Below are positions 29,001-59,369 of a stretch of DNA of 60,104 nt, one piece after another. Positions within the stretch are counted from its first letter, which is position 1. Every line of letters begins with the position of its first letter. The position numbers and the translations under genes are program-made. Location of the stretch: IMG/VR virus record IMGVR_UViG_3300042545_000094, positions 1 to 60,104 of that record; one strand, written 5' to 3'. Under the pieces are notes generated by a model. The model was given only the letters and a program-made list of their open reading frames with translations, was not told where the DNA came from and made no database searches. Source of the DNA: a virus.

Positions 29001-29431
29001 TTGAAATATCAATGGTACCCCCGCAGTATGTAGCTCAGTGCTGGCCTAAAATAGAGGGTTACATTGAGAAAGCCGCGGAGTATACTTATGGTAGATTTAC
29101 TGCGGGTAATATTTATGATTTAGTTTCCGAGGGCGATTACCAATTATGGATAGCGTTTGAGGGGCAAAACATTTACGGCGCAGTAGTAACGAATATAGTA
29201 ACTTACCCACAAAGAAAACTATTGTGTATGCAGTTTTGCGGTGGGGAAGACTTAGCATCTTGGAAAGACCCGATGCTTGCTTTACTGCGTAGATTTGCTA
29301 AAGATGTTGGCTGCGATGGAATTGAGTCGACAGCACGCCCAGGATGGGCTAAGATATTTCAAAATGATGGGTTTGCAGCCCATTGGGTAACATTTGAGTT
29401 ACCTTTAGATATGGAGAAAGAGCATGGGTAA
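28997..29431 (+). CDS. GNAT-like protein of virion cluster
   Basis: 144 residues with a GNAT acetyltransferase-like pattern: IAFEGQNIYGAVVTNIV strands, FCGGEDLASW, and GWAKIFQNDGF near the end. Similar short proteins are found beside T7-type internal virion genes. A clear acetyl-CoA loop (R/QxxGxG/A) is missing, so enzymatic activity is doubtful. It overlaps both neighbours. Confidence 0.65.
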   Translation: MIEISMVPPQYVAQCWPKIEGYIEKAAEYTYGRFTAGNIYDLVSEGDYQLWIAFEGQNIYGAVVTNIVTYPQRKLLCMQFCGGEDLASWKDPMLALLRRFAKDVGCDGIESTARPGWAKIFQNDGFAAHWVTFELPLDMEKEHG

Positions 29432-31760
29432 AGGCGGCGGCGGTGGCGGCGGTCCACAACAAACAACGGCTTATCAAACTAACATACCGGAATACGCAAA
29501 ACCGTATGTGATGAGTATGCTTGGGGCTACCCAAGAACAGTTGTTTAATACACAAAACGGTGAGATTACTGGGTTTAAGCCATACCAAGCATATTCTTCC
29601 GACCCTACACAATACTTTGCAGGGCCATCTAGTTTACAAACTAGTGCCTACAATGCCGCATCTCAATTACAGTCGCCAAGTCAATATCAAGTAGGTAGCC
29701 AACTTGCGGGTATGTCTGGTTTAGGACAACTAGGTACTGCTGGGCAAGCTGGTATGTTTGGGCAGCAAGGTGCTGGATTAGGTTTAATGGGCGCTATGCA
29801 AGCAGCCCCTGCATTTGGTGCTGGTTCACAATATGCTCGTAGTGTTACTGACCCTTCTCAGGTTGGGGCTTATATGTCTCCGTACCAGCAAGGTGTTACT
29901 GATGTTGCTAAAAATGCAGCTATTCGTGAAGCTCAGTTAGCACAGCAAGCTAGTAATTTAGGTGCAGCTCGTCAAGGTACTTATGGCGGTGCACGTCAAG
30001 CGTTGCAACAATCTGAACGTGAGCGTAATTTATTAGGTAACTTATCTAATATCCAAGCACAAGGTTCTCAATCCGCGTACGACCGAGCTATTCAGGCTCA
30101 ACAGTTTGGGGCTAATTTAGGCTTACAAGGTATTCAAACTGGGCTTCAAGGCGTTCAAGCTGGTATGCAAGGTATTGGTCAAGGCTTACAAGGCGTTGGT
30201 GCACAACAAGCCGGTTATGCTGGCGCAGGTCAAGCAGCTTCTACATTAGGTCAATTAGGTAGTGCGCAGAACCAGGCAGACCTAGCTAACATTGGTTTAC
30301 AGAATCAGCTTGGCGGTCAGCAACAACAGTATCAACAGAACATTATCAATCAAGCTATCCAAGACTACGCTACTGCTCAGCAGTACCCAATGATGCAGTT
30401 GGGCTTTATGTCTAATATGCTTCGTGGTTTGCCAATGCAAGCAACTACAACTCAAACTTATCAAGCTCAACCTAACTTAGCTACTCAAGCTATTTCTGGT
30501 TTGGGTACCGCAGCTGGCGCTTACAAGGCATTTGGCTTTAAAGAAGGTGGCGCAGTTAAAGGTTTGGCTAATGGTGGCTCAACTGGTATGGCGCAACAAA
30601 GTGAGTCTGCTCAAGGCATTAAAGCTCAGTTATTATCTATGCCAATGGAGCAAGTAGCTCAGGTAGCACAAACAAGCCCAAGCGAAACAGTACGTGCTAT
30701 GGCTAATGAAGTGCTAATGGAAAAGCGTATGCAAGCCCAGGCTGAGCAACAAGCTGAGCAATCTATTATGCAAGACCAACAACCTCGTGGTTTAGCAGCG
30801 GCTCCAGCTCCTTCAATGGATGCAATCGGTGCGGCTGGTGGGGGCATTGTGGCTTTTGCTACGGGCGACCAAGTTGAAGAAGAGGAAGATAAGTACGGAC
30901 AGTATGTAAGGGATGTGCAAAGAGCACGTCTAGCAGCTGGTGTAGAAGGCTCTCCTATTGACCCTAAACTTAAAGCTATGTACGAAGAGCGCCTTGCTGG
31001 TTTGCCAGGCCGTCGTGAAAGTGATACTGGTCTAAATATGATTGATTTCTTCAGTCGTATGAATAAGCCCGGTTCTACTTTGTCTGCTGGTATTGCAGCA
31101 GCAGGTGAGGCACTTCCTGGTATTGCAGCTCGTCGTAAAGAGTTAGCTGCTGAAGAATTAGCCGCAACTAAGGGTATGTCTGACCTTACTTTGGCTGAAC
31201 GCGCTGAGAAACTTGGTATTTCTAAAGAAGCCATGGGTGCTTACGAGAAAGAAATGGACCGAGAGAAAGCTCTTGATGTTGCACGTATCGGTGCCGCCCA
31301 ACGTCCTACTGATTTAGATAGAACTACTAGCGCCATTCTCGCTGATTTAATTGATAAAGGTGCTGCTGATAATGCAGCTACTAGAGCAACGGCTAGAAAA
31401 CAAGCAATTGAAGTAACAGGCCTTGCGTTTCCAAAAGCTGCAGGTGCACAAGAAGATAGACTTACTAAAGCTTATAAAGACATCGACGATAAGTATTTCC
31501 TTGAGAAGCTTCAAGCGGGTGATAATAAAGATAAACTTGCTGAGGTTCAAGCTAAGATTGACAAAGAAAGAGCTATTGCAGAACAACGTCTACGTATTGA
31601 ACCTACTCCAGCTCCTAGCACTAGCTCTGGTCGATTCCCTAAACCTGATATTTCAAAGGTACCTAACGTTCCTGAAGGTTCTAGCATTGGTGCACAAACA
31701 AATAAGGGCTGGGAAGTTAAGGACAAGGATGGTAAAGTTATAGGGCACATTCAAAAATAA
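29424..31760 (+). CDS. Large internal virion protein
   Basis: 778 residues. After a poly-Gly start (KGGGGGGG) there is a Gln/Ala/Gly-rich region of about 330 residues with heptad-like repeats (GLQGIQTGLQGVQAGMQGIG). Then come a basic/hydrophobic segment and a charged helical region from about 440 to the end. Such proteins form the inner core or periplasmic channel during ejection. No lysozyme or transglycosylase motif is seen. Confidence 0.7.
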   Translation: MGKGGGGGGGPQQTTAYQTNIPEYAKPYVMSMLGATQEQLFNTQNGEITGFKPYQAYSSDPTQYFAGPSSLQTSAYNAASQLQSPSQYQVGSQLAGMSGLGQLGTAGQAGMFGQQGAGLGLMGAMQAAPAFGAGSQYARSVTDPSQVGAYMSPYQQGVTDVAKNAAIREAQLAQQASNLGAARQGTYGGARQALQQSERERNLLGNLSNIQAQGSQSAYDRAIQAQQFGANLGLQGIQTGLQGVQAGMQGIGQGLQGVGAQQAGYAGAGQAASTLGQLGSAQNQADLANIGLQNQLGGQQQQYQQNIINQAIQDYATAQQYPMMQLGFMSNMLRGLPMQATTTQTYQAQPNLATQAISGLGTAAGAYKAFGFKEGGAVKGLANGGSTGMAQQSESAQGIKAQLLSMPMEQVAQVAQTSPSETVRAMANEVLMEKRMQAQAEQQAEQSIMQDQQPRGLAAAPAPSMDAIGAAGGGIVAFATGDQVEEEEDKYGQYVRDVQRARLAAGVEGSPIDPKLKAMYEERLAGLPGRRESDTGLNMIDFFSRMNKPGSTLSAGIAAAGEALPGIAARRKELAAEELAATKGMSDLTLAERAEKLGISKEAMGAYEKEMDREKALDVARIGAAQRPTDLDRTTSAILADLIDKGAADNAATRATARKQAIEVTGLAFPKAAGAQEDRLTKAYKDIDDKYFLEKLQAGDNKDKLAEVQAKIDKERAIAEQRLRIEPTPAPSTSSGRFPKPDISKVPNVPEGSSIGAQTNKGWEVKDKDGKVIGHIQK

Positions 31761-31769
31761 GGGCTCTAT

Positions 31770-34700
31770 ATGCGATTTGTACCTATAGACGAGGTTGAAA
31801 AGGAAGAACCTAGTGGGTTTAGGTTTGTTCCTTTAGGCCAAGAAACTCCTGCTAAAGAGCAAGAAGTTTCAGGTGTGCAAGACAAAAAACAAAAAGGTAA
31901 AAGTGTCCTTGAGGGCACTACTTTGTCTGAAGGTGAAGCCCCAGTAAAACAAGAAACAGTTAAGCTTCCTGGCTTTGAACACTTGTATCCGTCTGAGGAA
32001 AGTCCGTTTAATCTAAGTGAGCAATCGCGTACCGAAAAGCTAATCATGCAGGGGTTAGACCCTGAGTTTGCTCGTGCCACAGCCCGTAGAAATATTGCTG
32101 AAGGTAAAGCAACTACCGGTAAAGAATATGGGATTGCTAGAGAAACTCCAGAAGAAGTGCAGTTAGCAGAAGACCTTAAATACGTATCAGGCAAAACAGG
32201 TATTGAAGATACCGCCCAAGTACTTAAGCGAGCAGGGGTTAAAGCTACTACAGGTATGGCGCAAGCTGGCGGCGGTATGCAGCGTTTCGTTGGGGAGATG
32301 CTAGACCTAGACACCTCTGACGAGACTAAAACACTAGACCAAATCAATACATTCACCCAAAGTATGGGTGAGGCACCAAATAAACCTGTTCAAATTATTG
32401 AGGGTGCATTTAACTCTATCGGCCAACAAATGCCTGCATTGGTAGCAGGTGTTGCAACTGGTTCACAGCCTTTGGTTTTAGCTTCTATGTTCGCTAATTC
32501 CTTTGGTCAAAACTATGATGACAGCCGCCGTAGAGACCTAGATGCAGTGGATTCTACCGCTCGTGCTGCAGCTTATGCTGCGTTTGAAGTTATTGGTGAG
32601 AAGTTTGGTTTGGGCGACCAGTTAACAGCACTTAAAAAAGCAGCCACTGGGGTAGCTGAAAAAGACCTAGCTGAGTTTTTTGCAAAAGCGCTAGCAAAAG
32701 AAATTCCTGGTGAGCAGCTAACTTATGCTGGTCAGTTCGCCGTAGATAAAGGGTTTGGGTTAAACCCAGAAGCCGGTTTAAAAGAATTTATCCAAGGTGC
32801 TGTTGACACCATGTTAGTAACTGCAACCCAAGGCGGTATTATGTTGGGCGGCGGTATGACTATGAATAAACTTGTCGGTGGTAAGGGTGGTAGACAAGAA
32901 GAGCCTGAGCAAAAGACCGCTGCTGAGTTAACCAAAGAAAAAGGCTTTACCTTTGTACCCTTAGGTCAGACTAAAGAAGAAGTTGTAGCTGCTCCTATTG
33001 AAAAAGCTGAACTCAGAGAACCAACCATGAAGAACATGAGGGAAGATTTTGACTCTCTCATTGGCAATTTACAAGAGAAATACAACTCTAATGTCGACCG
33101 GTTAAAACAAAAGTTTGCAGAAATTACAGGTAAAACTACTGCGGAAGAAGTAGACCCAGTACAAGCACAGTTTAAAGATACTGTTGCACGTTACCAAGAT
33201 ATGGGTATGACTCGTGCGCAAGCCAGACAGTTGGCTAACCAAGATTTTGAGGAGGCCGGATATGGAGATAGACTTGACGCCGGAACAGTTCAGCCTAGCG
33301 TTTCAGTGCCTAGTGAACAACGCGGAGCCGACGCCGGAACTCCAGCACCTATCGGGCGAGGAGTGGGAAGAGATAGCGAAACTGCTGTTCTTCCTTCAGG
33401 CGGAGCAGAAGCTCAGCCAAGTGCACTAACACCAGCACAAGTTAGAGCCCAAGCTAATTCACAGGCTCTAGAGGTATTTAAAGCACCTAGAACAGAAAAC
33501 CCAGATGGTACGCTTACTTATAGCGCCCCAACTCCAGCAGTGCAAAAACAAATAGATGCCTACTCATTGGGCGCTTATGATGCTGCGCAGGGGTTTGATG
33601 GCGCTAGATATGCAGCGGATATGAAAGGTAAAGAAAAGAAAGCCTATGAAGAAGGCTTTACTTATGGACAACAAGTAGTTTCAAGTTTACCTACTGACAA
33701 ATTAGAAGTGTCACAAGATTTAGTAGACCTTCGTAAACAAATGGTTGCAGCTGATGAATTGGCTGCTAGGTCTAAGTATGGTCCTGATAAACGTAACGCT
33801 ACGATGGCATCTAGACGCTACCTTGCTGCTATGGAAAAAGCCACTGGTACAAAAGAAACCACAAGTCCTGAATGGCAAGCGTTAAATGACGCGGTTATAC
33901 AACAATCAGAAGCCATCCCTGCTGTGGAAGAATTAGAAGAGATAGCTGCACCTACTCCAGCATCCGTAGAAGAAACAGTTACACCTATTGCACCTGTTAA
34001 GCAGGGCAAACCTCGTGGTCGTAAGAAGTTAGACCTTACGGAAGAAGAAGCGGCGGCTAAGAAAGCTGCTAGAGCTGAGCAAACTAAAGAATGGAAAGCA
34101 ACTAATAAACAACTATTAGACGCCCAGAATGTGCTTAATCTTGAAGCGCCTGTTAGAGAAGAATTTACTAACGAAGATGCGTACCTTGATGCAAGTATGC
34201 GTTATAGAACAGACCGCCAAGCAGCCCTAGACCTATTAAATGGTATGGCAACTGGACCTCGTCGCAATACTGCATTGGGTAAAACTGCGCAAACAGGCTT
34301 GGCGAACCCAAATATTACGCCACAGGAATTAGCAGCGGTAAAAGAACGTGAAGCACTACGTAAAGGCACAGCTCGTGCAGAACTAATTGAAGCTACTAAT
34401 GGTGTTGAGAATGATAAATATGCAGACTTTAGTAATGGTGGACAAGCTTTATCTTGGATTGCCAAGAATGGTAACGAGTTTGAGTCTACGCTAGCTAAGC
34501 GCATACTGCCTTTTGTTCGCAACATGCGGGTTGTTATTGTTCGTTCAAGCGCTGATTTACCTACTAATTATTTACGCAGCCAGTTTGAAGGTGCTGCGGG
34601 TATGTACTCCAACGGGGTTATTTATCTAGACGCTAATGGTGGCATGAACAACACAGTGTTCTTGCATGAAGCCTTGCATGGTGCAACCATTGACCGTATT

Positions 34701-37700
34701 AACAAGTACCTAGATGATGTCGCCGAAGGACGTGAACCTGAAGCTAAGCTAGCTGAAGCCGTAGAAGAAATGAATGCGGTGATGAAGAGTGCTGGCCGTC
34801 TATACGACGCACTTAATAAGCTAGGTATGACCGATGAGCGTACGGATGCCTTGGCACGTGCTAATGCCTTTACTGATATTAAAGAGTTTGTAGCTTACGG
34901 CATGTCTCAGCCAGCTATGCAAGAGTTCTTGTTGCAAGCACCAGGTATGTATTTAGGCCCTAAAACTTCTTTCTTTGATGGTGTATTTAACCGTTTTGTA
35001 CAGTCTATCCGCAAGATGTTTAACATGGGGGAGAAACATAACTCCGCTATGCAGGACCTAATTATCGTTACAGATAAGCTGTTAGCCACAGAGATTGGTG
35101 AACCTAAGGTTACTAAGCAGCAAGCAGCTCTTGCCAAAAAGCAAACTCAGAAGTTTGATGCGGATGCGGAGAAGATACGTTTATCAAATACATCTACTGA
35201 TATGGTCAGTGCCATCGGCGAGTCCATAGATAACCACAGTTTTGAGCCTATCAAAGAACTACTAGATGCACGCTTCGAAGACCTTGGTAACGGGTTTATT
35301 AAGAAGACCCTTTACACCATGCAAACTGCTGACATCCTTCGTTGGAAGGGTAATGAGATTCCAGCACTTGTAGAAGTAGATGCTTTAACCCAAGAAATGT
35401 CCGCCATGCGTATGCGTATGATGGCTGCATCCGCTAAGAAGGCTGATGCCTTGGCCGCGTTTATCCGTAAGAATGGTTCAGTGGCATTAAGTAACACAAT
35501 GCACTTGGCTCGTTTAAAGAAGGTTAGCCCTACAGAACATGCCACGGCAGCCGATGCTATCAAAGCAGACCCAATTATTCAGCAGTACGAAAGACTAAAC
35601 GCAGACCCAGCTACAGACCCTGCGGATATTCCTGTTAATAAAGGAATGATTACCCGCCGTACTAATCAAATCCAAGCTGTATACGTTGCATGGGATGCGT
35701 TAGGTAAGCAAAAGGGTGGGCACGAGATGTACAAGATGGTACGTCAATACTACCAGGATGCCTATACGGCTACCCGTACGTTGCTAAATGAGCAGATTGA
35801 TGCTCTACCGATTGATGCTGCTGCTAAGGCTAAGTTACTTAAGTCAGTGCGTTTAATGCACGAGAAGAGTGTTGGTGCGGCTGCTGAAACTGTTTTAGAT
35901 GAAGATGGCACCCCTTTTGCTGAAGTGTCATTTAAAAACTTGCCAGAAGATTATTTCCCATTCAAGCGTTATGGCGAGTACTGGTTGCGCATAGAAGGCG
36001 GCCCAGCAGGACGAGAGTTCTACCTATTTGAGAATGGTAAAGACAGAAACTTATTCCAAGCTCGCCGTGCACGTGAGTTAGGTGTGGACCGTAATGACCC
36101 CAAGACTTTCTCTAAGGGTGACGATATTCACGCACTACGTCAGAACTTCCAAGATAGCAGTATCATGTTGCAAGAGATGTTTGCTGCTATTGATGGGGCA
36201 GATACCTCTAAAGCACCTGTTAATTTTTCAGAAGATATAAAAGACCAGTTGTATCAGATTTATCTACAGACTATGCCTGAGCGTAGCTTCCGTAAGCAGT
36301 TTATTCATGCTGACAAAGTAACTGGTTTTAGTGCCGACATCCTCCGTAACTTCAAGACTTCTGCTACGGCTTACTCTAATCAGTTAGCCAAGCTTAAATA
36401 CGGCACAGAAATTAACAACAGCATCCGACGTGCAAGAGATACTTTAGCGGGTATGCCAGCAGATATGCGTGGGCGTATGGAGTTATTCGTCAATGAGATG
36501 GATAAGCGCGCCCAAGATGAGATTAACCCACCAGAAGATAGCGGTTTAGCAGCTGGTGTAAATCAGTTTGCGTTCATCATGCTATTGACTGGTGCAGCCT
36601 CTGCCGCCACCCAGATGGCGTCTATTCCTATTATGGTAATGCCAACCTTATCTCAACAATACGGTTACGGCAAGGCTAGCGTGGAATTAGCTAAGTTAAT
36701 GCCTATCTGGAAGTCAGTTGGCTTTACACAAAAAGATGCTGAAACCGGAGAAGTAACATACACAGCACCTTCTTTAGCTTCTTCTGACTTGGCGAGAAAA
36801 AACCCTAATCTCAATCGTGCCTTCCAAGAAGCGATGGAGAAGTACAACTTATTTAGTCTTACCAATACTTCAGTAATTACTGATACTGCTAGAACTCCTG
36901 ATGATGCACCAGAGACACTTCTAAGAAAAACAGGTCAAACAATAAACAGAGGTATGACTGCCTTGTTTACTGGTTCAGAGCGTATGAGCCGTGAAATATC
37001 GTTTGCCATGACATTTAACTTAGAGTTTGCTAAGTCTGGTAACTTTGATGAGGCAGTTCAAAAGGCAGTGCAGACTACACATGAGTTATTGGGTCGTTAT
37101 GACAACATGAACCGCCCTCGTGTCTTGCGTAACTTTGCGGGTAGAACAATCGGTCAGTTTAAGATGTACTCTATCTTTATGACTTCATGGTTTATCCGTA
37201 ACGCAAACACTATGTTCCGTGAAGGCTTAGGAGAAGCGGAAGGGCGTGCGGCTACACAACGTATGGCTGGCGTTTTATTAATGGGTAGCTTGTTCCACGG
37301 CTTAGTGGGCATGCCTATGTATAGCGTGATAACTTCCGTAATTGACGCCCTTTCTGATGAGGAAGACGAAGAAGTTAAGAAGCGCCTTGCAAAGAACCCG
37401 TTGACAGCCATGAACTCTAACTTCCGTTTCCGTTACGAGTTCTTACCAAAATACTTTGGTGAAATCACTATGCCTGGGCTAGATGGTAGACAGCATAGTT
37501 TGGCAGAAGTGCTAGAAAAAGGCCCTATATCCGCATTGACTGACATTAACTTCAGCTCCCGTACCTCTTTTGACGGCATGTGGTGGCGCGAAGCTAAACC
37601 AGGTAAGACATTTGTAGAAACTGCGCAAAACATTATTCTCTCCAACTTAGGTCCTGGTGTATCTACTGGATTTAATATGGCTGGTGCAATTGATGACTTC

Positions 37701-38216
37701 TCTAATGGCAAGATTCAACGTGGTTTAGAGAAACTTGTACCTGCGTTCTTTAGAGGTTCTTTAGTTTCTTACCGTCTTGGTACTGAAGGTGCTGAGACTA
37801 AAGGTGGTGACAAGCTACTTAAGCAAGAAGAAATAAATACTATGAACTTAATAGCAGCGGCTACTGGGTTCCAACCAACACGTTTATCACGTATTCAAGA
37901 AAAGAACTTTGCAATACAAAAAGAACTAGTTGAAGCGGGTACCAAACGTACTAAGTTACTACGTCGCTTGAATGAGATTGCCTTGGATGACAAGGTAGAC
38001 GGTAAAGACATTTCTAATGCTATCAAAGATATTGTTGAGTACAACAAGCGCTACCCGATGGAGAAGTTTTTAATTCAGCCGGACACAATTCGCAGGTCTT
38101 TAGAGACTATGGCTGAAAAACGCGGTATGACTATACGCGGTCAGTACATGGATAAGAAGCTTGCACCATACGTCTACCCTTCAACTAAGGCAGTGACCCC
38201 ACTCAAGGAAGAGTAA
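31770..38216 (+). CDS. 2148-residue virion protein with metalloprotease motif
   Basis: The largest gene and the end of the rightward arm. The first 380 residues resemble ejection proteins. Residues about 490-540 are a low-complexity linker overlapped by another gene. A zincin-type motif H966-E-A-L-H970, preceded by a strand (GVIYLDANGG) and followed by a candidate third ligand E1039 in KEFVAYG, marks a metallopeptidase domain. A hydrophobic segment lies at about 1598-1625. The C-terminal 600 residues look like large polyvalent phage proteins. It is probably ejected into the cell, perhaps cleaving host proteins. Confidence 0.8.
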   Translation: MRFVPIDEVEKEEPSGFRFVPLGQETPAKEQEVSGVQDKKQKGKSVLEGTTLSEGEAPVKQETVKLPGFEHLYPSEESPFNLSEQSRTEKLIMQGLDPEFARATARRNIAEGKATTGKEYGIARETPEEVQLAEDLKYVSGKTGIEDTAQVLKRAGVKATTGMAQAGGGMQRFVGEMLDLDTSDETKTLDQINTFTQSMGEAPNKPVQIIEGAFNSIGQQMPALVAGVATGSQPLVLASMFANSFGQNYDDSRRRDLDAVDSTARAAAYAAFEVIGEKFGLGDQLTALKKAATGVAEKDLAEFFAKALAKEIPGEQLTYAGQFAVDKGFGLNPEAGLKEFIQGAVDTMLVTATQGGIMLGGGMTMNKLVGGKGGRQEEPEQKTAAELTKEKGFTFVPLGQTKEEVVAAPIEKAELREPTMKNMREDFDSLIGNLQEKYNSNVDRLKQKFAEITGKTTAEEVDPVQAQFKDTVARYQDMGMTRAQARQLANQDFEEAGYGDRLDAGTVQPSVSVPSEQRGADAGTPAPIGRGVGRDSETAVLPSGGAEAQPSALTPAQVRAQANSQALEVFKAPRTENPDGTLTYSAPTPAVQKQIDAYSLGAYDAAQGFDGARYAADMKGKEKKAYEEGFTYGQQVVSSLPTDKLEVSQDLVDLRKQMVAADELAARSKYGPDKRNATMASRRYLAAMEKATGTKETTSPEWQALNDAVIQQSEAIPAVEELEEIAAPTPASVEETVTPIAPVKQGKPRGRKKLDLTEEEAAAKKAARAEQTKEWKATNKQLLDAQNVLNLEAPVREEFTNEDAYLDASMRYRTDRQAALDLLNGMATGPRRNTALGKTAQTGLANPNITPQELAAVKEREALRKGTARAELIEATNGVENDKYADFSNGGQALSWIAKNGNEFESTLAKRILPFVRNMRVVIVRSSADLPTNYLRSQFEGAAGMYSNGVIYLDANGGMNNTVFLHEALHGATIDRINKYLDDVAEGREPEAKLAEAVEEMNAVMKSAGRLYDALNKLGMTDERTDALARANAFTDIKEFVAYGMSQPAMQEFLLQAPGMYLGPKTSFFDGVFNRFVQSIRKMFNMGEKHNSAMQDLIIVTDKLLATEIGEPKVTKQQAALAKKQTQKFDADAEKIRLSNTSTDMVSAIGESIDNHSFEPIKELLDARFEDLGNGFIKKTLYTMQTADILRWKGNEIPALVEVDALTQEMSAMRMRMMAASAKKADALAAFIRKNGSVALSNTMHLARLKKVSPTEHATAADAIKADPIIQQYERLNADPATDPADIPVNKGMITRRTNQIQAVYVAWDALGKQKGGHEMYKMVRQYYQDAYTATRTLLNEQIDALPIDAAAKAKLLKSVRLMHEKSVGAAAETVLDEDGTPFAEVSFKNLPEDYFPFKRYGEYWLRIEGGPAGREFYLFENGKDRNLFQARRARELGVDRNDPKTFSKGDDIHALRQNFQDSSIMLQEMFAAIDGADTSKAPVNFSEDIKDQLYQIYLQTMPERSFRKQFIHADKVTGFSADILRNFKTSATAYSNQLAKLKYGTEINNSIRRARDTLAGMPADMRGRMELFVNEMDKRAQDEINPPEDSGLAAGVNQFAFIMLLTGAASAATQMASIPIMVMPTLSQQYGYGKASVELAKLMPIWKSVGFTQKDAETGEVTYTAPSLASSDLARKNPNLNRAFQEAMEKYNLFSLTNTSVITDTARTPDDAPETLLRKTGQTINRGMTALFTGSERMSREISFAMTFNLEFAKSGNFDEAVQKAVQTTHELLGRYDNMNRPRVLRNFAGRTIGQFKMYSIFMTSWFIRNANTMFREGLGEAEGRAATQRMAGVLLMGSLFHGLVGMPMYSVITSVIDALSDEEDEEVKKRLAKNPLTAMNSNFRFRYEFLPKYFGEITMPGLDGRQHSLAEVLEKGPISALTDINFSSRTSFDGMWWREAKPGKTFVETAQNIILSNLGPGVSTGFNMAGAIDDFSNGKIQRGLEKLVPAFFRGSLVSYRLGTEGAETKGGDKLLKQEEINTMNLIAAATGFQPTRLSRIQEKNFAIQKELVEAGTKRTKLLRRLNEIALDDKVDGKDISNAIKDIVEYNKRYPMEKFLIQPDTIRRSLETMAEKRGMTIRGQYMDKKLAPYVYPSTKAVTPLKEE
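33262..33429 (+). CDS. Nested 55-residue gene inside giant gene
   Basis: An ATG at 33262 is preceded by GAGGAGG (33249-33255) at 6 bases, the best ribosome site of the region. It reads 55 codons in another frame than the giant gene, giving an acidic, helical, well-composed protein (LTPEQFSLAFQCLVNN, then LSGEEWEEIAKLLFFLQAEQ). The giant protein in this stretch reads as a Pro/Gly/Ser/Ala linker, as expected if the inner frame is the constrained one. Function unknown. In-frame extension to an ATG at 33214 lacks a ribosome site. Confidence 0.75.
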   Translation: MEIDLTPEQFSLAFQCLVNNAEPTPELQHLSGEEWEEIAKLLFFLQAEQKLSQVH

Positions 38217-57036: not shown

Positions 57037-58281
57037 TCAGTTCTTAATATGTATCGTCTTACCCATAGGTGCAAACGTGTTCGGATTCCGAACGACTGTC
57101 CATAGCATCGGTGCTTCCCACTCATTACCCCAATCTCCTATACACCCATCGGTCAGCATGATGACTGCCTCAGGTTTAATGTTGTGTTCCTTAAGATAGT
57201 GATGCACACACGTAGGGTCTGTGCCACCACCGCCCATTGGTTTAGTAGAACTAACAATGTTAGATACATCATTAGCGTCATACACTTCATGTCCTGCTAC
57301 TGCACTATCCCAATAGATAAGGTCTACTTTCTCAGGGTGAACCTCGTCAGCAATTCCTTTCACTTCTGAAAGAAACTCATTCAACTCATGCCCACCGATT
57401 GAACCCGACGTGTCAATGCCAATCACCAGATGCCCAACTCTTTCTCCTATTAGGCTAGGCATATACACACCAGTGCCTAGGTATCGTCTGTTCACCCTAC
57501 GCCAACTGCTTGCATCTTTTGCACTACACGTAGACTTCACAAACTCACGTAGTAGCTCACGCCAATCCACCTCAGGCTCAAGTAACTCTGTTAGCTCTCG
57601 GTTCAAACCACCCGCACCATTACCATTTACTTTGTTATTAGCAATCACACCTTGGCGTAGTGCTTGGTCAATCTCACGTTCCAATTCCTTCTTGGTCTCG
57701 GCATCAAGTTCCTTCGCACCTTCCCAGTCATGGTCATCAAAGCCACCGCCACCTTCACCATCACCTTCAAGCGGTTGCCCTTCGCCGAACATACCTTCGC
57801 CATTCTTCTTGTCCTCTTTGAGTAGGTCAAAGACTTGCTTAGCGTTCATGCCACGATACTTCTCATCAACTAGTCCTATTGCCTTACCTTGATGATGTGG
57901 CATTGCAATAACATTGTTAGATTTATCCATGTCTAGCAACATAAGGTTAATCACATAGTCGCAAGCCATGTTCGCCAACTGTTTATCCTCGTCCCACAAC
58001 TTCTTCCAAGTGAACAAGTGTCGGAAAGCCTTGTGCAATGTTTCATGTAGCACAACAAACGCAAGCTCTCTGTCATCAAGCATCTTGATAAACTCACGAC
58101 CATAAGTTTCGTCCCGACCATTCGTGCAAGCGGTTGGAATATCATCTGACACGCGGGTCTTACCCACAGTCATCAAGCCCGACCACAAGGCAAACTTAGG
58201 ATTCCTCATAATAGAAATCTTAACTTTACTAAGTCGCCGCTCTTCTTTGTCTTTGACTACTACGCTAGGTGTATCTAACAT
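57037..58281 (-). CDS. DUF2201/VWA metallopeptidase-like protein
   Basis: 414 residues from the ATG at 58281, with GAGGA 8 bases upstream. The frame reaches back to 58350 but overlaps the MoxR gene. N-terminal metallopeptidase-like motif H79-E80-TLH83 lies in a helix (LAFVVLHETLHKAFRH). A Gly/Glu-rich linker (about 160-185) leads to a von Willebrand A-like domain with MIDAS D290-T-S-G-S and TDG (about 375). Partner of the MoxR ATPase encoded just upstream, as in MoxR-VWA chaperone pairs and CobS/CobT-like chelatases. Start codon lies within a palindrome. Confidence 0.88.
   Translation of the reverse strand: MLDTPSVVVKDKEERRLSKVKISIMRNPKFALWSGLMTVGKTRVSDDIPTACTNGRDETYGREFIKMLDDRELAFVVLHETLHKAFRHLFTWKKLWDEDKQLANMACDYVINLMLLDMDKSNNVIAMPHHQGKAIGLVDEKYRGMNAKQVFDLLKEDKKNGEGMFGEGQPLEGDGEGGGGFDDHDWEGAKELDAETKKELEREIDQALRQGVIANNKVNGNGAGGLNRELTELLEPEVDWRELLREFVKSTCSAKDASSWRRVNRRYLGTGVYMPSLIGERVGHLVIGIDTSGSIGGHELNEFLSEVKGIADEVHPEKVDLIYWDSAVAGHEVYDANDVSNIVSSTKPMGGGGTDPTCVHHYLKEHNIKPEAVIMLTDGCIGDWGNEWEAPMLWTVVRNPNTFAPMGKTIHIKN
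57251..57263. promoter_or_regulatory. 13-bp palindrome, exact copy (site 7)
   Basis: CTAACAATGTTAG inside the VWA gene, read as S-N-I-V-S, which is another reading frame than sites 3 and 5. Confidence 0.8.
57908..57920. promoter_or_regulatory. 13-bp palindrome, one mismatch (site 8)
   Basis: ATAACATTGTTAG inside the VWA gene, read as S-N-N-V-I. Confidence 0.6.
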
Positions 58282-58287
58282 TGTTAG
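58275..58287. promoter_or_regulatory. 13-bp palindrome over VWA start (site 9)
   Basis: CTAACATTGTTAG contains the ATG of the VWA gene (58281-58279) directly after its ribosome site. A protein bound here could block elongation of the MoxR-VWA transcript. Exactly 400 bases from site 10. Confidence 0.8.
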
Positions 58288-58301
58288 TTTCCTCGGTTGG
58301 A

Positions 58302-59369
58302 TTAAAGTAAATCTTCGTTCTTCTGAACCCAGTCGGCGAACTTCGCACAACTGAAAGCTATGTTCTGTTTAGTCGGGGACTTAGCCACGTTGATAGCAAA
58401 GCACGCTTGCCACTCAGGTTCAAACTTCTCCAAGTAAGTCATAAATGGGGTCATTGTTTCCTTGGTAATCTTAGCGATTGCACCGAACACAATAATTGCA
58501 CACGCACCTGCACTCTCAGGGACTTTGGCGTTCTTCGGGTCTTTCATCACAGATTCCCACGTAGGCAACTGGTCTGAATAGTCAATGTATGCTTGCATAT
58601 CACGTGATGCTGATTCGCCCACCGCACCCGTCATTGCACATATCAAGCTATCCGTATCAATCTGAGAGCGAACGCTAACAATGTTAGATACACGCTCAAG
58701 TGAACGAGGCGATACGAACGCAGTCTGCATCTTCTTTGGGTTGTAGATATACGGGTTGTCTGACTGTGCGGGGTCGGTATAACTCGCTAGTGCATGGGGG
58801 AACTGGCGAACCCACGCAATAACTTCGGGTGCGATATTGTTATTGATAGCCCACTCAATCCATTGGTCTGAATCAGGCTTGCTTACTCGTAGCGGGATAA
58901 TACGATTGCGACTATGTGCCTTCAACGTATCGCCCACTCCGTCTGTGCTTAGGTTGCCTGTTAGAAACACAATAGATTCGGGGTGAACTGACACATCACC
59001 CAAACGTGGGTTGGCTACTTCCAATAGTGGGTGCAACATATTCTTAACTGGCTCTGCACCTTTGGTGAACTCATCTAACATTGTTATGACTGGCTTGCCC
59101 GTATGCACTTTGAATCTACTGTTAGGGTAGTAGGCAGTAGTCTTGTTCTCATGGTTGATAACTGGCATGGCAATATCGCCCAAGTCCATGTTCGGCACGT
59201 CAATGTATGCCACTTCATGTTGGGGTAGCTTTGCGGATAGCGACTTAAGTAGAGATGATTTACCAATCCCTGGCTCACCTTCTAATAAGTAGCGGTTCAT
59301 AGGTGTGGCAAGAATAATCTCGCTCGCTTGTTTTAACGTAACTGTTTTACCAAAATTGATTTCACTCAT
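58302..59369 (-). CDS. MoxR-family AAA+ ATPase
   Basis: 355 residues. Walker A GEPGIGKS (31-38), Walker B ITMLDEF (D100-E101), sensor 1 in VFLTGNLS (about 135) and an arginine-finger-like AHSRNRIIPLRV (about 150) are all visible. MoxR ATPases act with VWA proteins as chaperones or chelatases that open or load target complexes. AAGGA lies 7 bases before the start. Two palindromes lie inside the gene and one in its leader. Confidence 0.92.
   Translation of the reverse strand: MSEINFGKTVTLKQASEIILATPMNRYLLEGEPGIGKSSLLKSLSAKLPQHEVAYIDVPNMDLGDIAMPVINHENKTTAYYPNSRFKVHTGKPVITMLDEFTKGAEPVKNMLHPLLEVANPRLGDVSVHPESIVFLTGNLSTDGVGDTLKAHSRNRIIPLRVSKPDSDQWIEWAINNNIAPEVIAWVRQFPHALASYTDPAQSDNPYIYNPKKMQTAFVSPRSLERVSNIVSVRSQIDTDSLICAMTGAVGESASRDMQAYIDYSDQLPTWESVMKDPKNAKVPESAGACAIIVFGAIAKITKETMTPFMTYLEKFEPEWQACFAINVAKSPTKQNIAFSCAKFADWVQKNEDLL
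58675..58687. promoter_or_regulatory. 13-bp palindrome, exact copy (site 10)
   Basis: CTAACAATGTTAG inside the MoxR gene, read as S-N-I-V-S. 400 bases from sites 9 and 11. Confidence 0.8.
59075..59087. promoter_or_regulatory. 13-bp palindrome, one mismatch (site 11)
   Basis: CTAACATTGTTAT overlaps the Walker B codons of the MoxR gene (I-T-M-L-D). Confidence 0.6.

Follow-up and report, generated by a model that had tools for sequence, protein, structure and literature searches.

Evidence for a small gene overprinted in the +1 frame of a giant polyvalent-type phage gene

Does the linker of a giant phage gene also encode a second protein in another frame, and if so, which of the two proteins does selection see? 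The question is raised by a 60,104-base IMG/VR virus record of a tailed phage (IMGVR_UViG_3300042545_000094), analyzed over its full length and hereafter called the window. A first-pass annotation, made from the letters of the sequence, placed a short frame with its own ribosome site inside a giant gene of this record and proposed that both frames are coding. We compared the locus with related viral loci, identified by L numbers below.

Results

The nested open reading frame (ORF) coincides with a linker of the giant protein. The nest occupies 33262–33429 on the plus strand, in the +1 frame of the giant gene, and encodes 55 amino acids from an ATG to a TAA stop (33427–33429). A Shine-Dalgarno (SD) sequence, GAGGAGG, lies at 33249–33255, 6 bases ahead of the ATG at 33262, and start, stop, frame, length and ribosome site are all as the first-pass annotation had them. 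Its description of the giant protein here as a Pro/Gly/Ser linker also holds: the giant codons across the nest (33261–33428, plus strand, residues ~498–553) form a Gly/Pro/Ser/Thr/Ala-rich linker (G 18%, A 14%, T 14%, P 10%) that reads AGYGDRLDAGTVQPSVSVPSEQRGADAGTPAPIGRGVGRDSETAVLPSGG...

The giant gene (31770–38216, plus strand) encodes 2,148 amino acids. It has no Pfam hit of its own, and its only matches are to the PHROG DarB-like and related families, over C-terminal residues ~1356–2126. We call it polyvalent-type because aligned relatives carry LPD39 (14/20 giants, the window giant not among them), LPD38 (3/20) or ART-PolyVal (1/20) domains. A HEALH zincin-like metallopeptidase signature at residue 966 (34665–34679, plus strand) is identified as a sequence motif only, and the giant C-terminus also matched five plasmid records. 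The upstream neighbor (29424–31760, plus strand, 778 amino acids) is ejection-type by its relatives, two of seven aligned members matching a DNA ejection protein family and the window member not being one of these two. Elsewhere the window carries terminase, portal, major head protein and SU10-type adaptor genes, with a replication block on the opposite strand. A protein with DUF2201 metallopeptidase-like and VWA-like domains is also encoded in this phage genome, at 57037–58350 on the minus strand.

Within one genome the nested ORF is unexceptional. Among 2,000 synonymous-codon shuffles of the window giant, 140 (7%) contained a comparable out-of-frame ORF, defined as at least one ORF of at least 55 codons with an ATG or GTG start and an SD match of at least 5 bases. 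Open stretches of at least 45 amino acids in the +1 frame are common in related giants. The single-genome case for the small ORF is thus weak and only suggestive, and it is conservation across relatives that lies far beyond chance.

Related small proteins are found nested in giant genes throughout the loci searched. An initial viral scan with the window small protein gave no match, and a scan with the giant protein returned one relative only, matching at the C-terminus. Searched against 82 loci, the window small protein matched 18 at E ≤ 0.001 with identities of ~35–50% (its own piece, L001, aside), every match lying in that same frame within a large ORF. An iterated profile applied to L001–L133 recovered 82 loci, comprising 46 distinct proteins and 48 distinct DNA sequences, and two further scans brought the total to 116 IMG/VR loci with 69 distinct DNA and 64 distinct protein sequences (the window is counted and its copy L001 left out). 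In all 116 the small protein lies on the same strand and in the same frame, nested in a giant ORF (L129 is cut by the contig end), and its length is about 55–62 amino acids. An open frame is thus maintained within another open frame across 69 distinct and diverged DNA sequences, an openness partly guaranteed by the search itself, which read frames from stop to stop.

Presence of the nest is patchy and seems to follow the giant gene. Many of the 116 loci were fetched with the small protein itself, and their positivity is not independent; the unbiased sample is the 80 loci fetched by the upstream gene and not picked for the small ORF. Of these, 30 have the nest, 29 lack it despite a downstream ORF of at least 900 amino acids, and 21 are too short to judge. 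With 29 of 59 judgeable loci carrying a long giant ORF and no detectable copy, the nest is not always required, either by this type of virus or by the giant. In a tree built from the upstream protein (71 rows, of which 46 have the nest), presence of the nest requires 13 changes, compared with a mean of 20.8 in 500 shuffles, none of which was as low. L031 and L036 have near-identical upstream genes, yet only one of the two giants that follow has the nest, which suggests that whole giant alleles have been swapped; the nest thus seems to travel with the giant allele. No convincing remnant of a decayed nest was found in nest-less loci.

The giants themselves vary widely around the nest. Profiles of the N-terminal third of the window giant match only 1 to 2 of 48 nest-bearing giants, while the small protein is recognizable in all 48, these giants having been chosen for having it. 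Giant C-terminal profiles match 32/48 nest-bearing and 2/28 nest-less giants, and an N-terminal module motif was counted in 22/48 giants with the nest and 8/28 without. We dropped the idea that the nest is tied to an LPD39-type C-terminus, as seven complete nest-bearing giants (L023, L116, L120, L124, L125, L127 and L132) have no C-terminal hits. Profile-profile runs on this link were uniformly null, were possibly badly set up, and are not relied on.

Outside these loci the family was not recovered. Five family members searched against GenBank phages gave only a chance-level match in Goslar (E = 0.3), and the upstream gene and giant DNA used as queries gave none. A nested relative is absent from seven GenBank phages with a related giant (those examined among 71 records matching the giant C-terminus), and scans of GTDB genomes for the small protein yielded nothing confirmed.

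A start signal accompanies the nested frame in nearly all relatives. Taking the best start per sequence, an SD match of at least 4 bases precedes the small ORF in 46 of 48 distinct family sequences and one of at least 5 bases in 35, compared with 13.9% and 2.2%, respectively, of 9,136 other out-of-frame starts in the same giants; choosing the best among a few candidate starts somewhat favors the nest. The ribosome site noted in the first-pass annotation is thus retained in nearly all of these relatives. The two exceptions, L028 (9825–9998) and L080 (12311–12487), conserve the nested frame and lack a standard start codon with an SD at the expected place. They may use an unusual start codon, and the pair still displays the small-frame pattern of change (11/3/14 at small positions 1/2/3). 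Upstream of the start, the small frame is open for tens of codons in many relatives; in several, including L005, L016, L062 and L105, an in-frame stop lies immediately 5′ of the start, which favors separate initiation over read-in from an upstream frameshift.

Substitutions within the nest follow the small frame. Small positions 1, 2 and 3 correspond to giant positions 2, 3 and 1. When 13 pairs are aligned under guidance of the small frame, its positions 1/2/3 show 119/56/185 changes, placing only 56 of 360 at giant third positions. In flanks of the same pairs (those with giant identity >50%), changes at giant positions 1/2/3 number 168/122/348 upstream and 63/48/116 downstream. In 13/13 pairs, the small frame has a higher identity than the giant frame across the shared bases. 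The pattern persists when 12 pairs are aligned in the giant frame instead: giant positions 1/2/3 differ at 157/95/71 sites in the nest vs. 2476/1710/5984 elsewhere (P = 6e-39, chi-square test; windows of ≤45% identity left out, and two pairs sharing the near-identical members L039 and L047). In 11 of these 12 pairs, no other window has as small a share of its changes at giant third positions as the nest; for L118/L128, just two further windows were usable. The exception is L055/L057, where the window that competes with the nest is another candidate nested ORF.

Close pairs separate selection on the two proteins. Across 16 independent close pairs with 183 changes, 45 are nonsynonymous in both frames (69.5 expected), 17 in the small frame only (51.1 expected), 117 in the giant only (46.5 expected) and 4 in neither (0.7 expected), with expectations from a rough model in which kappa is fixed at 2. 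No change creates a stop in either frame, where ~15 would be expected. The n/s ratio of the small frame is 0.21 overall and 0.26 among changes that are nonsynonymous in the giant, a roughly four- to fivefold depletion; that of the giant frame is 3.37 over the nest and 1.95 when only changes nonsynonymous in the small protein are counted, showing no depletion. Purifying selection thus acts on the amino acids of the inner frame apart from the outer one, bearing out the earlier proposal of an inner frame under selection on bases read twice. On these n/s and position counts, the small protein is evidently constrained and the giant linker evidently free beyond the need to stay open: by this comparative evidence, selection is stronger on the small family than on the linker, and the small family carries most of the selection at the shared bases.

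Two further candidate nested ORFs were noted in related giants. One, in L055 (15570–15797) and L057 (15668–15895), encodes 76 amino acids from a GTG start with GGAGAG upstream and lies where the giant is rich in Gly and Ser; giant positions 1/2/3 carry 5/3/0 changes, and identity is 98% in the alternative frame vs. 90% in the giant frame. The other, in giants without the main nest (L032, 13389–13544; L034, 13221–13376; L035, 13311–13466), has a TTG start preceded by AGGAG or AAGGAG and an alternative-frame identity of 72–92% vs. 55–83% for the giant frame.

The small proteins are acidic and predicted to be helical. Median pI is 4.63 over the family and 4.26 for the window member. A Trp is conserved in the family, as is an S-x-L-H/Q tail at the C-terminus, the last residue among 64 proteins being His in 45, Gln in 18 and Asn in 1. 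An AlphaFold2 model predicts two helices (residues 7–19 and 32–52) with a mean pLDDT of 81.2, and a second structure model was no better (79.6). None of the 64 proteins has a transmembrane-like stretch, the highest 19-residue hydropathy being 1.05. Searches of PHROGs, Pfam, NCBIfam and PADLOC with 15 family members found nothing significant, and Foldseek found nothing in PDB and BFVD at E = 0.001. The best VIA-align match (Z = 5.0, a homeodomain) falls within the range of common helical arrangements and gives no specific fold match. A PDB profile search gave a faint, nonsignificant match to Tsi2 (E = 0.56), which is absent from the fold matches.

Discussion

We conclude that the small ORF is almost certainly a real overprinted gene, encoded in the +1 frame within the giant gene and equipped with a start codon and SD sequence of its own; over the nest, the giant frame behaves as a spacer needing only to stay open. 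The joint claim that it is such a gene and is reached by internal initiation is also highly probable: ribosomes would initiate internally on the mRNA of the structural gene, and the small protein would be made together with the giant. To argue instead that codon bias in a Gly/Pro/Ser linker produced the small ORF by chance, with selection on the giant only, one could point to the abundance of open +1 stretches in these giants and to the shuffled window giants that hold a similar ORF. Yet giant third positions, which change most elsewhere, change least within the nest, nonsynonymous change in the giant frame is not depleted in the nest, and the inner protein is recognizable where the halves of the giant are not. 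The position counts and close-pair analyses already contradict a chance origin, which we regard as scarcely credible. Programmed ribosomal frameshifting, yielding a shortened giant that ends in the small domain, would be permitted by the +1 geometry and by the frame being open 5′ of the start in many relatives, but the SD with ATG or GTG is conserved and in some relatives the stop right before the start blocks this route, making frameshifting very improbable.

The role of the product is a more tentative matter. We favor, with some hesitation, an accessory of the giant, itself an injected polyvalent-type virion protein by inference from relatives; during virion assembly the small protein would serve the giant or its neighbors, whether as a chaperone, as an adaptor for packaging or as a minor partner in the virion. 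This reading is preferred because the small protein was found only inside the giant gene, which has an ejection-type neighbor, and because it persists while the giant changes. It may instead be an unrelated late or host-directed protein that uses the spot for coding economy, a possibility we take seriously: no feature links it physically to the giant, its presence is patchy, and giants without the nest may hold a different nested ORF, but it occurs nowhere outside the giant gene in the loci searched and is absent from the GTDB genomes scanned. An immunity-like inhibitor acting on one of the giant's enzymatic domains, for example the zincin-like peptidase, would suit a small acidic partner and the excess of zincin-region profile matches in nest-bearing giants (35/48 vs. 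7/28 nest-less). We consider it unlikely because five complete giants without any HExxH (L077, L107, L110, L111 and L112) keep the nest, as do giants with different C-terminal parts.

A more speculative possibility, which we think doubtful, is that the overprinting ran in reverse. The small gene would be the older one and the one under selection, and the giant would have arisen when an ejection module at the N-terminus was fused to a cargo part by reading through the silent frame of the small gene; the linker would be its shadow, and such shadow linkers (with the L055/L057 and L032/L034/L035 ORFs as candidates) would recur at domain joints. Codon usage lends no support to an older small gene, being better in the small than in the giant frame in 31/67 cases (mean log weights −0.155 and −0.066, respectively). 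Whichever frame came first, the nest is a natural setting in which to test how one frame can constrain or free another, and the small protein is a candidate partner for polyvalent virion proteins.

Small phages such as phiX174 carry overprinted genes in which the same bases encode two functional frames. The present case differs in lying in a 60-kb tailed phage and in having an outer frame that is less constrained at the overlap. Judged by its relatives, the host gene is of the same kind as the phage polyvalent proteins with LPD38, LPD39, zincin and ART domains, whose commonest domains are zincins (PMC5512222); a nested gene is unmentioned in the parts of that source available to us. Our literature search, in which subscription journals were incompletely covered, found no nested gene in polyvalent phage giants. 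Full +1 nesting is already known from phage lambda, where the small gene Rz1 is wholly embedded in the +1 frame of Rz (PMC6139136), and it is this small-protein family and its setting that we did not find in the literature searched. Rz1 belongs to the lysis cassette and is a lipoprotein of the outer membrane. The product described here, by contrast, has no transmembrane-like stretch and shows no lipoprotein signal with a lipobox cysteine (38 of 64 small proteins have no cysteine at all), and the host frame is no i-spanin in a lysis cassette but a 2,000-amino-acid polyvalent-type gene with an ejection-type neighbor. As stated for embedded spanins (PMC6139136), the gene callers in common use have a bias against genes that overlap fully with another, so whole families can be missed, and the small gene, very probably a real one, is of the sort that standard annotation misses.
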